Source of the DNA: an uncultured bacterium
GTDB taxonomy: Bacteria > Hydrogenedentota > Hydrogenedentia > Hydrogenedentales > CAILVY01
Assembly: GCA_937951485.1 (NCBI GenBank)
Contig: CALEDJ010000036.1
Coordinates: 1-23,130, forward strand
Direction: 5' to 3'
DNA length: 23,130 nucleotides
Below are positions 64-23,130 of this stretch, one piece after another. The notes under the pieces were generated by a model. It was not told the origin of the DNA. It saw nothing but the letters and a program-made list of their open reading frames with translations, and did not search any database. Made by a program: the position numbers and the translations under genes. Each line of letters opens with the position of its first letter. Within the stretch, counting starts at the first letter, position 1.

Positions 64-490
64 GTGGGAATTCCTGAGACATTATTGACCGGTGCGCCAA
101 GGTGTTCCGTTTTGTTTCCCCTCACCCCACCCCTCTCCCGGCGGGAGAGGGCGGTTACCGCAAAACGTGATCAATGCTGTTGCTCCCGCTCCCGGCGGGA
201 GAGGGCGGTTACCGTAAAACGTGAGCAATGCTGTTGCTCCCGCTCCCTCTGGGATAGGGCGGTTACCCCAAAACGTGAGCAATGTTGTTGCTCCCGCTCA
301 CGGCGGGAGAGGGCGGTTACCCCAAAACGTGAGCAACGCTGTTGCTCCCGCTCCCGGCGGGAGAGGGCGGTTACCCCAAAACGTGAGCAACGCTGTTGCT
401 CCCTCTCCCTCTGGGAGAGGGGTGGGGTGAGGGGCAGGGCCGATATAATCGAAGGCCTTTCTCAGCGCCCCGAATATTTTGGACAGCACT
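64..490. repeat. 54-bp-period palindromic repeat array, left copy
   Basis: Five tandem 54-bp units begin at 151, 205, 259, 313 and 367. Each holds two inverted repeats: a CTCTCCCG/CGGGAGAG-type palindrome and AGCAAC-GCT-GTTGCT (written from the last two units). The array is enclosed by CCTCACCCCACCCCTCTCCC (120-139) and its near reverse complement ending at about 434. An outer flank (64-119) and an inner flank (435-490) are also conserved in the inverted copy at 22648-23130. Because 54 is a multiple of three, several frames stay open and read as 18-residue repeats; these are repeat artefacts, not genes. The units resemble REP/BIME-type palindromes. Function is unknown; transcript protection, termination or nucleoid binding are only possibilities. 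Confidence 0.85.
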
Positions 491-610
491 CACGCCAATA
501 CCAGGGCCGAGCGGCTCATGAACCTGGCGCGGATTGGGAACGACTTCCTGCAATTGCACCGATCTTCGCTCAAGGACGCATTCGCCGCATTACAGGCGTT
601 GCCTGCATAA
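449..610 (+). other. open-frame remnant beside the repeat array
   Basis: A frame opens after a TAA at 446-448 and runs to TAA at 608-610. It ends in a plausible amphipathic tail, RLMNLARIGNDFLQLHRSSL followed by KDAFAALQALPA. There is no start codon with a ribosome binding site. The first 13 codons (SKAFLSAPNILDS) belong to the repeat's inner flank, whose inverted copy reads SKAILNAKNILDK in the same frame. It may be the tail of a gene disrupted by the repeat, or chance. The family is not recognised. Confidence 0.25.
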
Positions 611-625
611 AACCGGGGAGCACTG

Positions 626-790
626 AGGGCGCTCCGCGCCACCCCCTTCAAAGGGGGATTCTTGCAAAAATTCCTGAGTAATGACGTATTCATATTCATG
701 AGTAAAAGTCTCTCCATGGGCTTACAAATCACCTGTAAGCATCGCAGTTAAGCCCCCCTTTGAAGGGGATGGCGCGGAGCGCCGGGGGAT
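626..790. repeat. inverted repeat pair, arms 626-661 and 750-790
   Basis: The two arms are near-exact reverse complements about 90 bp apart. Each contains a purine/pyrimidine palindrome of the CCCCCTTCAAAGGGGG type next to a GGCGCTCCGCGCC type. Together they could form a long cruciform or RNA hairpin. The interval between them (662-749) holds a small CTTACA/TGTAAG stem at 721-739 and no gene. The arms look like another dispersed palindrome family distinct from the 54-bp array. Confidence 0.75.
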
Positions 791-795
791 GTGGG

Positions 796-977
796 AAATA
801 GGGGACAGTCAGCAGTTTTCTTTGCTTTCTGCTGTGCGTTGCGCTACGTTGACGTCATGCCAAGAATAGCACGCACCGTGATAGCGGGCGTTGCGCGCCA
901 TGTGCCGGCAGGCCGCCAACGCGGTTCCCAAAAACCTGACATGACAGGCGGGAAACAGTAAAAACAGGTGCCTGTCC
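796..977 (+). mobile_element. internally deleted non-autonomous RAYT derivative (MITE-like)
   Basis: Bases 796-903 match 12446-12553 exactly, and bases 904-977 match 13260-13333 exactly. About 700 bp of transposase-coding sequence is missing between the two parts. The left end reads AATAGGGGACAG. The right end carries ACAGGTGCCTGT, a short hairpin of the kind RAYT/REP systems use. It keeps the first 15 codons of the transposase (MPRIARTVIAGVARH) and then joins the 3' end at a 1-2 nt microhomology. The perfect match to both ends of the 12446 copy points to a recent deletion or recent spread. It lies directly downstream of cheB. Confidence 0.85.
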
Positions 978-1019
978 TTTATATTCATATTCTGCATATT
1001 CATTTGGGTTAAGCAGTAT

Positions 1020-2060
1020 TCAGCCGCAGCACTGGAGTATCTTTTGAGCAATCCGTTCGAGAGGCAGGACGTGGTCTACTGCGCCGCGGGCGATGGCTTC
1101 TTTGGGCATGCCGAAGACGACACATGACTGTTCGTCCTGTGCAATCGTTTGCGCACCGGCATCGTGCATTTCTTTGAGGCCGTCAGCCCCATCCGATCCC
1201 ATCCCGGTCATGATCACGCCGATGGCGTTCTTGCCGGCGTATCGTGCGACCGACTTGAACAATACTTCGACGGAAGGGCGATGGCGGTTTACGAGTGGTC
1301 CGGTTTTCACCCGAACCTGATAGACTGCCCCGGAGCGGCACAGCAGCATATGGTGATTGCCTGGGGCGATGAGCACCCGTCCTGTGGAAACCGTGTCGCC
1401 GTCACCTGCTTCACGGACTTCCATGGCGCAGATCTGGTTCAATCTATCCGCGAATGAACGGGTGAAGAACTCAGGCATATGCTGAACAATCACGATTCCT
1501 GGAGCATTAGCCGGCATGGCAGCAAGCACGGCGGCAAGCGCCTCTGTGCCCCCGGTTGATGCGCCAATAGCCACGACCTTGTTCGTTGTTCGCGTCATAG
1601 CCAGTGATTGCGCAGGCGTGGAAAGGGGTGTTTTTTCTGCGACCCTTGCTCGTACATTGGCGTGAGCAGCGGTTTTGATCTTTTCTGCAAGCTCGACAGC
1701 AAGGTCGTCGCGGGTGGAAATCGCACCCGGCTTACAGACGACGTCGACGGCGCCAATTTGAAGCGCTTCGAGAGCCAGTTCACTGCCCTGAGGAGTCAGA
1801 GATGAGACAATGATGACCGGCAATGGATAATGACGCATGAGTTTGCGCAGGAAGGTAATGCCATCCATCCGCGGCATCTCGACGTCCAGCGTCACTACAT
1901 CAGGATTAAGTTGGACGATCTTGTCGCGTGCCACATAGGGGTCGGGAGCCGTGCCGATGATCTCGATCTCAGAATCGCGGGCCAGTTCAGCAGACAGAAT
2001 ATTGCGTATAGTGGCCGAATCGTCCACGATAAGGACGCGTATGCGCCGCCCTGTAATCAC
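1020..2060 (-). CDS. cheB: CheB, receptor methylesterase/deamidase response regulator
   Basis: CheB removes methyl groups from receptor glutamates, resetting receptor sensitivity. The N-terminal receiver domain (about 5-125) has the acidic pair D13/D14, phospho-acceptor D59 in [11 protein letters not shown], and K110. The C-terminal methylesterase domain (about 160-345) shows the full catalytic triad: S168 in IGASTGG, H194 in VQHMP and D290 in GMGSDGADG. At 346 residues the length is normal for the family. The start is a GTG at 2058-2060 that overlaps the previous stop as GTGA, with AAGGGA upstream, so it is translationally coupled to the CheX-like gene. It is the last gene of the second che unit. 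No clear terminator follows; the MITE-like element lies about 40 bp downstream. Confidence 0.97.
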
Positions 2061-21728: not shown

Positions 21729-21998
21729 TCAGGCCTCCGCCCAAACGGCATCCTTCTCGCGGTCGCGCTTTTCTTCGAGATTGCGGATTTCCTCGGTCAT
21801 TCGGGCGAGAATTTCAGCGCGTTCCTCCGGGACCGCGGCCGCGGCTTGACTCTCATGGCTGACGCGCGTTTCGGCTATTCGCGCCTCATAGCGCTTTTCG
21901 ATGTCCGCAATCCGCGCCCGCTGCTCCTCCGAGAGTTTCTTTGTCCCACCCCCGGCTTGTGTCAGGCGTTCCATGGCGATTTCGTATGCGCTTTTCAT
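21729..21998 (-). CDS. small coiled-coil protein of unknown function
   Basis: An 89-residue, highly charged cytoplasmic protein. The start at 21998 (MKSAYEIAMERLTQAGGG) has AGGAG about 10 nt upstream; a longer frame to 22028 overlaps the previous gene. After the lead helix comes KKLSEEQRARIADIEKRYEARIAE and a second charged helix to the end, with heptad-like spacing indicating a helical hairpin or coiled coil. There is no signal peptide or membrane segment. From memory, similar MKSAYE(I/L)AMERL proteins occur in planctomycete-like genomes, but no function is known to me. The stop of the upstream gene is 13 bp away, so the two form an operon. Confidence 0.88.
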   Translation of the reverse strand: MKSAYEIAMERLTQAGGGTKKLSEEQRARIADIEKRYEARIAETRVSHESQAAAAVPEERAEILARMTEEIRNLEEKRDREKDAVWAEA

Positions 21999-22011
21999 CC
22001 GGCCAACGCTC

Positions 22012-22503
22012 CTACATGGAAAACTCATCTTCCAGCACGCTGGCGATGAACCGTTCGATGGATATCAGATAATACCGGCTGTTCGGCGTAATGATGACCC
22101 CGGTGGTGATGTCCTCCATCCTGTCCAGTTCATCCATGCTGGCGGACAAGGCCTCTTCGACGCTGTCCGACAGATGTTGCACTTCCAAGAATTCCGAACT
22201 GCACTCCACCGGTTTGTGCTTGAAGCCCAGCACCCCGAACATGCGGCCAATCAGCGCCGCATCCACATTTTCCTCGCCGAAAACGTCTTCGTAACGCGGT
22301 ACATAATGCTGTGGGCGAATGACGAACCGCGGCGATACCTGCACCCGGCCCCGCACCCGCGTGGACGCAAAGCCCCCCTCAAGCGACGCGCCCAGGCAGA
22401 TGTAGGGTAACTCATGATAGCCCCGCACGATGCCATAGGTCGGCCGGCGCACAATCGTCGTGTGCTGGAAGATTTCCCACATTTCTTTTGGGCTGATGGA
22501 CAT
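22012..22503 (-). CDS. conserved-looking unknown protein, 163 residues
   Basis: A soluble 163-residue protein starting MSISPKEMWEIFQHTTIVRR at ATG 22503, with GAGG 5 nt upstream. Notable segments are YGIVRGYHELPYICLG, RGRVQVSPRFVIRPQHY, EDVFGEENVDAALIGRMFG and a C-terminal ITTGVIITPNSRYYLISIERF. The composition is that of a folded enzyme or regulator. There is no signal peptide, transmembrane helix or nucleotide-binding motif, and I cannot assign a family. It is first in a two-gene operon with the coiled-coil protein, and its own promoter candidate lies at 22536-22564, so the pair may form a complex. Confidence 0.88.
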   Translation of the reverse strand: MSISPKEMWEIFQHTTIVRRPTYGIVRGYHELPYICLGASLEGGFASTRVRGRVQVSPRFVIRPQHYVPRYEDVFGEENVDAALIGRMFGVLGFKHKPVECSSEFLEVQHLSDSVEEALSASMDELDRMEDITTGVIITPNSRYYLISIERFIASVLEDEFSM

Positions 22504-22535
22504 GTTTACCTCAATACCATGTTGCGTCTACTTCG

Positions 22536-22564
22536 AGTGTACCCCAAGCGGCGCCTGCGTGCAA
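22536..22564 (-). promoter_or_regulatory. candidate promoter for the small unknown pair
   Basis: Minus-strand TTGCAC (22559-22564) and TACACT (22536-22541) are 17 bp apart and 33 bp upstream of ATG 22503. The -35 match is modest. Nothing else is visible between 22565 and the repeat element at about 22648. Confidence 0.4.
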
Positions 22565-22647
22565 GATGCTGCAGAAGGAAAGGACGGATCAAGGTCACCA
22601 AGGACAACCGGTAGCGCAAGGAGAGCAAGGATGACGTGATTTCAATC

Positions 22648-23130
22648 TTGTCCAGAATATTCTTAGCGTTGAGAATAGCCTTCGATCAGATTGGCCTTCC
22701 CCCTCACCCCACCCCTCTCCCAAAGGGAGAGGGAGTTATGAACCATTATTCAGAAGATCGTGGGAACCCCCACCCCTCTCCCGCTGGCAGAGGGAGCGAC
22801 AGCAGGCCGCAGGTGGCGCGCTAAACACGCTCTCCCCCTGGCAGAGGGTGCAACAGCAGGCCGCAGGTGGCGAGCCAAACGCCCTCTCCCCCTGGCAGAG
22901 GGAGCGACAGCATTCCACAGGTAGCGTGGTAAACGCCCTCTCCCGCGGGCAGAGGGTGCAACAGCAGGCCGCAGGTGGCGCGCCAAACGCCCTCTCCCGC
23001 TGGCAGAGGGAGCGACAGCAGGCCGCAGGTGGCGCGCCAAACGCCCTCTCCCCCTGGGAGAGGGGTGGGGTGAGGGGAAACAAAACAGAACACCTTGGTA
23101 CACGGGTCATTGACGTCTCAGGAATCCCAC
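22648..23130. repeat. 54-bp-period palindromic repeat array, right copy (inverted)
   Basis: This is the reverse-complement counterpart of the left array. Its inner flank (22648-22700), CCTCACCCCACCCCTCTCCC arms and outer flank (about 23075-23130) align with the left element at roughly 75-90% identity by eye. Five 54-bp units each begin GCAGAGGG at about 22786, 22840, 22894, 22948 and 23002. They are preceded by one 61-bp unit with an unrelated core (about 22727-22785). The palindromic frame is shared with the left array but the central 20 or so bases of each unit differ completely. Long open frames here (18-residue repeats such as GEGVWRATCGLLSLPLPA) are artefacts of the 54-bp period. Confidence 0.85.

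Follow-up and report, generated by a model that had tools for sequence, protein, structure and literature searches.

Several bacterial repeat systems come close to the element described here. The BOX element of Streptococcus pneumoniae, organised as boxA-boxB(n)-boxC, has terminal inverted repeats (TIRs), target duplications, a conserved head and tail, tandem middle modules in variable number and stable folding, with no transposase of its own (PMC3049150). The BrickBuilt and PgRS MITEs of Porphyromonas gingivalis have a leader, a tail and an internal minisatellite, and are restricted to the species in many copies (PMC4596501). In addition, the G/C-rich intrastrand triplex motif TM/TMECO, CCCTCTCCC-loop-GGGAGAGGG-loop-GGGTGAGGG, is intergenic, numbers 23 in E. 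coli K-12, forms some inverted pairs in E. coli, is linked to instability and has been reported as not associated with transposons (PMC4666352).

The element studied here shares the listed features of BOX and of the P. gingivalis MITEs, and its frame has the same sequence as the triplex motif, with a predicted triplex. Its sequence differs from BOX, however, and so do its G/C-rich triplex-motif frame, its 54-nt module with a version for each locus, its array inversion and its captured foreign modules. The units of BrickBuilt and PgRS are 23 or 41 nt long and have neither hairpin frame nor captured inserts, and the TIRs of these MITEs are related to IS5 elements, whereas a consistent 9-bp target site duplication (TSD) is found here; and unlike the described TM/TMECO copies, the motif here has been amplified in tandem within a TIR element. 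The captured modules alone resemble type I-E and type II CRISPR arrays, by their sizes (29+32; 36-37+30), hairpin-bearing repeat and inserts from elsewhere, but the assembly yielded no cas genes, the modules are mostly identical, and no growing set of different spacers is seen per locus. A true CRISPR array is rejected, since no Cas1 was found and the 54-nt modules are alike within a locus.

Two element copies in the window

The window is the whole 23,130-bp contig, with one element at either end, and the contig ends lie inside the elements because the assembly breaks there. The original prediction treated positions 64 to 23,130 as one structure, which gives way to two elements, both of which sit between genes (a location seen for these two copies only). 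Their features are as follows.

1..117, + strand: head of the left element; the contig begins after its 5' inverted repeat, and the boundary is taken from other copies
118..151, - strand: first triplex/hairpin motif, CCCCTCACCCCACCCCTCTCCC-GGC-GGGAGAGGG, inverted partner of 401-434 (94%); motif class as in PMC4666352 Table 1
152..400, + strand: five 33-nt cores (152-184, 206-238, 260-292, 314-346, 368-400) with 21-nt hairpins between
401..434, + strand: last triplex/hairpin motif, CCCTCTCCC-TCT-GGGAGAGGGGTGGGGTGAGGGG, inverted partner of 118-151; PMC4666352 motif
435..491, + strand: tail of the left element, with the 3' terminal inverted repeat TTTTGGACAGCACTC at 477-491
22643..22696, - strand: tail of the right element, with a degenerate terminal inverted repeat at about 22643-22657 (4 mismatches)
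22697..22733, - strand: last triplex/hairpin motif of the right element, from repeat comparison within the window
22707..22735, - strand: 29-nt duplication, copy 1, CTCCCTCTCCCTTTGGGAGAGGGGTGGGG on the - strand
22736..22767, - strand: captured insert of 32 nt, GTTCCCACGATCTTCTGAATAATGGTTCATAA, found elsewhere only at L102 (C65)
22768..22796, - strand: 29-nt duplication, copy 2, CTCCCTCTGCCAGCGGGAGAGGGGTGGGG on the - strand
22795..23043, - strand: five 33-nt cores (22795-22827, 22849-22881, 22903-22935, 22957-22989, 23011-23043) with 21-nt hairpins between
23044..23077, + strand: first triplex/hairpin motif of the right element, which itself lies on the - strand
23078..23130, - strand: head of the right element, cut off by the contig end

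The predicted pair of 54-nt-period arrays in a shared frame is borne out. The period is exactly 54 nt both at 131-421 (5.4 copies, 90% matches) and at 22774-23064 (5.4 copies, 86% matches), each unit consists of a 21-nt hairpin and a 33-nt core, and head, hairpin frame and tail are common to the two when read in the same orientation. Left and right elements are also related through inverted arms, with 73% identity for 67-427/22768-23128 and 85% for 399-485/22649-22735. What had been taken as a standard palindromic frame was right in kind: the frame is an already described triplex/hairpin motif that lies within a TIR transposable element, and positions 401-434 fit the sequence pattern of the triplex motif in PMC4666352 Table 1. 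Folding the left element as single-stranded RNA gives a strong structure (z -7.7), a value which says nothing on triplex, and an Rfam search of the window gave no match.

The cores were expected to be uniform within each array. This applies to the left array, where units are 85-98% identical to one another, while the right array is mixed: its units are 80-96% identical, with 85% core identity; one core, on the 22957-22989 side and third when the element is read in its own orientation, belongs to the type common in the genome; and a 61-nt module with a foreign 32-nt insert closes the array. Between the arrays, the 33-nt cores show 61% identity and their middle 20 nt 47%.

As 54 nt equals 18 codons and ORFs of 205 and 124 aa run through the arrays, the units might be read as coding repeats. 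We hold this to be scarcely credible, because other loci have units of 52, 53, 55, 56, 61 and 67 nt, which do not keep the reading frame, and the core is found in both orientations.

A dispersed TIR element and its core family

The element is dispersed at about 70-80 loci in this genome, the copy counts being derived from searches and retrieved sequence stretches of the genome, and it was not found in 29 other genomes of the same family and order. Across the genome, 53 left ends and 48 right ends give the consensus CAGTGTTGTCCAAAA / CAGTGCTGTCCAAAA, with terminal inverted repeats CAGTGYTGTCCAAAA, and about 40 scored copies of the left-element head have 78-100% identity across all 121 nt. Identity between the flanking 9-mers is 70%, whereas flanks of other lengths reach about 27% (183 of 261 letters agree, compared with 77 +/- 8 when shuffled), although the duplication is decayed or absent in a few copies (L058, L097, L103). 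Ends of inverted repeats together with 9-bp target duplications show that the whole unit has therefore moved by transposition. Conserved head and tail bracket a variable number of tandem modules: each element has the G/C-rich triplex motif twice between them, in inverted orientation, with 0 to 5+ units of 54 nt separating the two copies. Complete elements have 0-6 intervals, with unit number and sequence varying by locus; because many copies are cut by contig ends in this draft genome, where arrays could also be collapsed, array lengths are lower bounds. With high confidence, both arrays are minisatellites that lie within two copies of a single non-autonomous TIR element, a MITE similar to BOX and BrickBuilt.

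We searched the assembly for two transposase families, DDE_Tnp_1 (PF01609) and Y1_Tnp (PF01797), and found neither. An IS4-type partner in the own genome is rejected on this account, and mobility is read from footprints only. The MITE assignment stands without a mobilising IS of matching TIRs, as such an IS is not required of every member of the class. For REP/BIME-type repeats moved by a RAYT (Y1) transposase, which would also be tandem, palindromic and intergenic, the missing Y1_Tnp and the presence of long TIRs with 9-bp target duplications make the case very improbable. A literature search found no paper on the TIR sequence. The role of the element is likely selfish, that of a hitch-hiking repeat.

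The cores had been described as unrelated between arrays, which the genome-wide comparison contradicts: 136 cores of 33 nt from 62 loci all fit one consensus, CGTTTACCGCGCAACCTGAGGCATGCTGTTGCT. Judged by sequence, the main cores of the window arrays are distant, diverged variants of one element-borne module. Core identity averages 93% within loci and 72% between loci, with 32% in reversed controls; the cores are thus locally homogenised as predicted, but belong to one family. In loci with several units, the nearest relative of a unit comes from its own locus in 79% of cases, and in 3% once labels are shuffled, in agreement with the proposed local amplification. Arrays are inverted as wholes in 13 of the 62 loci and none is mixed in orientation; L090 and L103/L032 carry the same cores in opposite orientation. 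After insertion, the repeated hairpin/triplex motifs may drive slippage or unequal recombination, by which each array would be homogenised, and recombination between inverted motifs would flip whole arrays. Mixed cores, variable period and loss of conserved flanks had been named as signs of simple satellite drift; mixed cores do occur in some arrays (L077, L049, L080, L091), while periods are quantised rather than drifting and flanks are strongly conserved.

Captured modules and their possible origin

Genome-wide, about 18 distinct modules carry foreign DNA flanked on both sides by directly duplicated element sequence; the right array has one of these (22707-22796). The notion of a captured core is thus valid for these inserts, but not for the main cores, which are diverged copies of one module. 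Captures of unrelated DNA at CRISPR-unit spacing in a minority of modules are new and unusual. They are few, and are repeated in place. A post hoc length test finds their total lengths grouped at 60-61, 65-67 and 72 nt. The 61-nt class consists of a 29-nt duplication and a 32-nt insert, the 66-67-nt class, where clear, of a 36-37-nt duplication and a 30-nt insert, and the 72-nt class of about 36 + about 36. Two inserts match genes elsewhere in the same genome over exactly those 32 nt (31/32 and 28/32). A search for insert origin in phages and plasmids gave weak or chance matches only, and exact 22-24-mers from six inserts had no match in IMG/VR. Two sets of candidates were rejected as captures: the apparent 60/62-nt spacings of L086 and L065 are small hairpin duplications, and the element's own head has been duplicated in the 67-nt modules of L047 and in one module of L079. 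A pattern search for the capture structure in 68 genomes of the phylum gave one other match, a weak lead (G012, 61-nt spacing, simple-repeat insert).

The captures may have arisen by Cas1-Cas2-type integrases acting on hairpins or by template switching, both accounts concerning the captured modules only. In off-target integration, Cas1-Cas2 acting on an element hairpin would join a spacer-like fragment of fixed length to either end of a target stretch that is itself fixed and would thereby be duplicated on both sides; the resident Cas1-Cas2 would since have been lost, or be missing from the assembly. We consider this quite possible, if somewhat short of an even prospect. The fixed geometry of duplication and insert in size classes is consistent with it, as are the two inserts matching gene DNA over 32 nt alone. 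The capture totals also recur as the periods of genuine CRISPR arrays in genomes of the same order, namely 61 (L238), 66 (L233/L236) and 72-75 (L224, L226, L228), and Cas1 is present in 18 of the 30 genomes of the relatives search. Stem-loop binding by Cas1 and integration outside arrays have been reported (PMC9456107, PMC11788318). However, Cas1 was not found in the own assembly, which is 94% complete, the flanks of the two gene donors (GGA/CGG and TGA/CCC; two donors only) have no common PAM, three size classes would call for more than one integrase, three 61-nt loci (L049, L079, L091) have a degenerate 29-nt duplication, and the length test is post hoc.

Template switching at a stalled fork is a tentative alternative. 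A fork would stall at the triplex/hairpin, and the nascent strand would copy about 30 nt elsewhere and return, leaving a templated insert between direct duplications. Duplication-insert-duplication is the expected product, the matched genes would be the templates, GGTGG is shared at the L092 donor edge, and an association of the motif with genomic instability has been reported (PMC4666352). Yet this process predicts continuous lengths instead of the observed clusters, and similar motifs in other bacteria show broad hairpin spacing.

Taking integration further, the hairpin/triplex motifs may act as decoy CRISPR repeats, into which Cas1-Cas2 inserts spacer-sized host or invader DNA with canonical geometry, a reading we put forward tentatively. 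As the captured modules would then be amplified in place, the element family would preserve, like a fossil record, traces of earlier adaptation activity in a genome now without Cas1.

Meaning of the element

The element adds to the small class of bacterial MITEs with a minisatellite, and a widespread, unexplained triplex motif is here placed inside a mobile element. If the Cas1-Cas2 account is true, the length-quantised captures, for two of which a gene donor is identified, would provide evidence from nature that CRISPR integrases use hairpin repeats outside CRISPR loci, which is a proposed route to the birth of CRISPR arrays. Otherwise they would point to another length-measuring capture process at triplex DNA. 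E. coli K-12 carries a type I-E Cas1-Cas2, and both meanings are directly testable in this strain.

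The repeated element at the contig ends

The two arrays of 54-bp period claimed in the original prediction prove to be real: tandem repeat detection (TRF) reports two period-54 arrays, and a repeat finder applied to the window pairs both of them, together with their flanks, as inverted arms. The source genome is a 4.55-Mb draft in 77 contigs, of which the window is one complete contig (C36), and many contigs of this genome start or stop in the same element. Because both window ends fall within copies of one repeated element, the symmetry of having an array at each end is an assembly effect. 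The features of the window are as follows.

1-491 (+): left element, with period-54 array at 131-421
492-620: repeated sequence directly after the tail of the left element
628-657 / 754-783: 30-bp inverted repeat GGCGCTCCGCGCCACCCCCTTCAAAGGGGG
796-989, 12446-13345, 17877-18181: three copies of another dispersed repeat
1020-11963 (-): dense chemotaxis gene cluster
13085-13246: 51-bp tandem array, with the dispersed-repeat copy at 12446-13345
13563-17522: Kelch/PKD protein, 1319 aa
17074-17158: tandem repeat
22643-23130 (-): right element, with period-54 array at 22774-23064

Searches with the hairpin, head and tail gave 80 stretches. In most of them a conserved head, of about 118 nt with some 45 nt more up to the 5' end, is followed by inverted triplex motifs that enclose the array, and by a 58-nt tail. 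At its outer ends the element carries inverted repeats, CAGTGTTGTCCAAAA and CAGTGCTGTCCAAAA (consensus of 53 and 48 ends respectively), and the flanking 9-mers are duplicated, with an identity of 0.70 at length 9 versus 0.25-0.31 at lengths 4-8 and 10-13; 183 of 261 letters match, against 77 ± 8 with shuffled partners. Examples of perfect 9-bp target duplications are those of L032 (TTATTCAGT), L065 (CAAGTGAAC) and L077 (GAGCAACTT). The element is a MITE of the DNA-transposon type; its length is about 270-630 bp, and greater with nested inserts. Searches of 29 further genomes from the family and order did not find its head, and no DDE_Tnp_1 or Y1_Tnp protein was found in the source assembly.

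The sequence at 492-620 recurs at 93-99% identity on contigs C37, C30, C31, C45 and C40, and therefore the left element sits in or adjoins another repeat; C37 and C30 have this flank in common with unlike unit numbers (3 versus 5). The three-copy dispersed repeat, with stretches of 108 and 88 nt that are 100% identical, reads like a decayed transposase-type gene and has no Pfam match. Sequence similar to the 30-bp inverted repeat is nested in the heads of three elements (L062, L095 and L035), which suggests that it may form a second palindromic repeat family. In the chemotaxis cluster, MCP and CheW are confirmed by Pfam, and CheA-, CheB-, CheR-, CheD- and CheY-like genes are read only from the ORFs. 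The EGEGEG low-complexity tract of the Kelch/PKD protein comes from the tandem repeat at 17074-17158.

Array units and the hairpin frame

Measuring the period and comparing core diversity had been proposed with the original prediction. Of 177 hairpin-to-hairpin intervals, 134 measure 54, and core identity averages 93% within and 72% between loci, with 32% for the reversed control. Among the complete elements, 11 have one interval, 5 have two, 9 have three, 6 have four, 3 have five and 2 have six; one locus without intervals, L052, consists of a head, one 46-nt perfect palindrome and a tail. All 136 of the 33-nt cores, from 62 loci, belong to one family; the left and right cores of the window, taken earlier to be unrelated, are distant members of it with 61% identity. 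In multi-unit loci, 79% of units have their nearest relative in the same locus (3% expected), and the arrays show local homogenisation. The cores are inverted in 13 of the 62 loci, never with mixed orientation. Locus L090 has cores identical but opposite in orientation to those of L103 and L032, the heads being 5-6% apart, which fits a whole-array inversion that would proceed via recombination between the flanking inverted motifs. Head and core distances are weakly correlated (Mantel r 0.17, p 0.0075).

The frame CCCTCTCCC-loop-GGGAGAGGG-GT-GGGGTGAGGGG is by sequence the G/C-rich intrastrand triplex motif of Holder et al. (PMC4666352), which a pattern scan of genomes finds in many phyla. Tandem arrays on this motif are present in Planctomycetes bacterium Pan216 (L142:4376-4635, 33 bp x 7.9) and Lelliottia sp. 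WAP21 (L186:5309-5987, 53 bp x 12.7), and its amplification seems to be recurrent across phyla. Distances between neighbouring hairpins are broad in other bacteria with the motif.

Captured modules in length classes

The spacings other than 54 are non-random, namely 60-62 (15), 65-67 (8) and 72 (1), plus 120, 121 and 126, which equal 54 + 66, 67 or 72; minor shifts of 52-56 occur as well. Self-alignment shows captured modules, that is, unique DNA flanked by direct duplications of element sequence.

Size classes of the captured modules (duplication + insert, nt)
Class 61: 29-nt duplication (CT)CCCTCTCCCnnnGGGAGAGGGGTGGGG + 32-nt insert; L092, L108, the window's right array and L102, L088, L049, L079, L091
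Class 65-67: 36-37 + 30 where clear; L075, L049, L053/L080, L093/L126, L055, L091; related set L046/L077/L083/L101
Class 72: about 36 + 36; L035, L053, L074, L249

In class 61 the 29 + 32 split shows best at L092 and in the window, the duplication is degenerate at L049, L079 and L091, and the L079 member measures 60, short by one base. The module of L071 is larger (78 + 54). A gapped pattern search of the source genome with free insert length recovers the same classes and no further ones, except duplications of the element's head. Three clusters describe the lengths of 18 distinct inserts with a residual sum of squares of 2.6, where uniform lengths give 75 on average and never below 21, in a post hoc comparison with the clusters seen beforehand. 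The earlier idea of a captured core holds for a minority of modules.

At L053, L080, L075, L035 and L093, a unique segment takes the hairpin's place between two cores, and some of these segments carry their own short palindrome, such as CAGTTACGTTAACTG in L035. In a same-order genome, G012, which has a 61-bp CRISPR array, a lone 61-nt duplication-insert-duplication lies at a triplex motif (L244, C100:196126-196183); its insert is a simple repeat, so this is possibly a coincidence.

Two inserts have donors in the source genome. The insert of L092 matches C43:12712-12743 at 31 of 32 positions with unrelated sequence on both sides, in a gene whose product matches Glycos_transf_2 (E 3e-20). For L108, the insert agrees at 28 of 32 positions with a gene fragment on C57, the match being confined to the insert; by chance, about 3e-5 matches as good would be expected for all inserts together. 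This fragment has no Pfam or PHROG match. The remaining inserts lack a convincing donor in the source genome, phages and plasmids, and none of six tested by exact match is in IMG/VR.

As for the origin of the modules, our first, still tentative candidate is Cas1-Cas2-type integration at the element's hairpins: the module sizes equal CRISPR unit sizes, 18 of 30 genomes in the search of relatives have Cas1, their arrays repeating every 61, 66 and about 72 bp, and in the same-family genome G001 a cas9-like gene is paired with a cas1-like one, as read from sequence. Stem-loop binding by Cas1 has been reported, and there are known cases of integration outside arrays (PMC9456107, PMC11788318). However, the source assembly has no Cas1, the two donors display no visible common PAM, and the size classes are three. 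Template switching at a stalled triplex, our second and only slightly less likely candidate, yields the same duplication-insert-duplication product but would not give fixed lengths. The choice between Cas1-Cas2 integration and template switching leaves the main conclusion unaffected. The element is a new MITE family bearing a minisatellite, which is a known kind; pneumococcal BOX (PMC3049150) and BrickBuilt (PMC4596501) have the same architecture of head, tandem modules and tail with TIR and TSD. Its unusual feature is the length-quantised captures.
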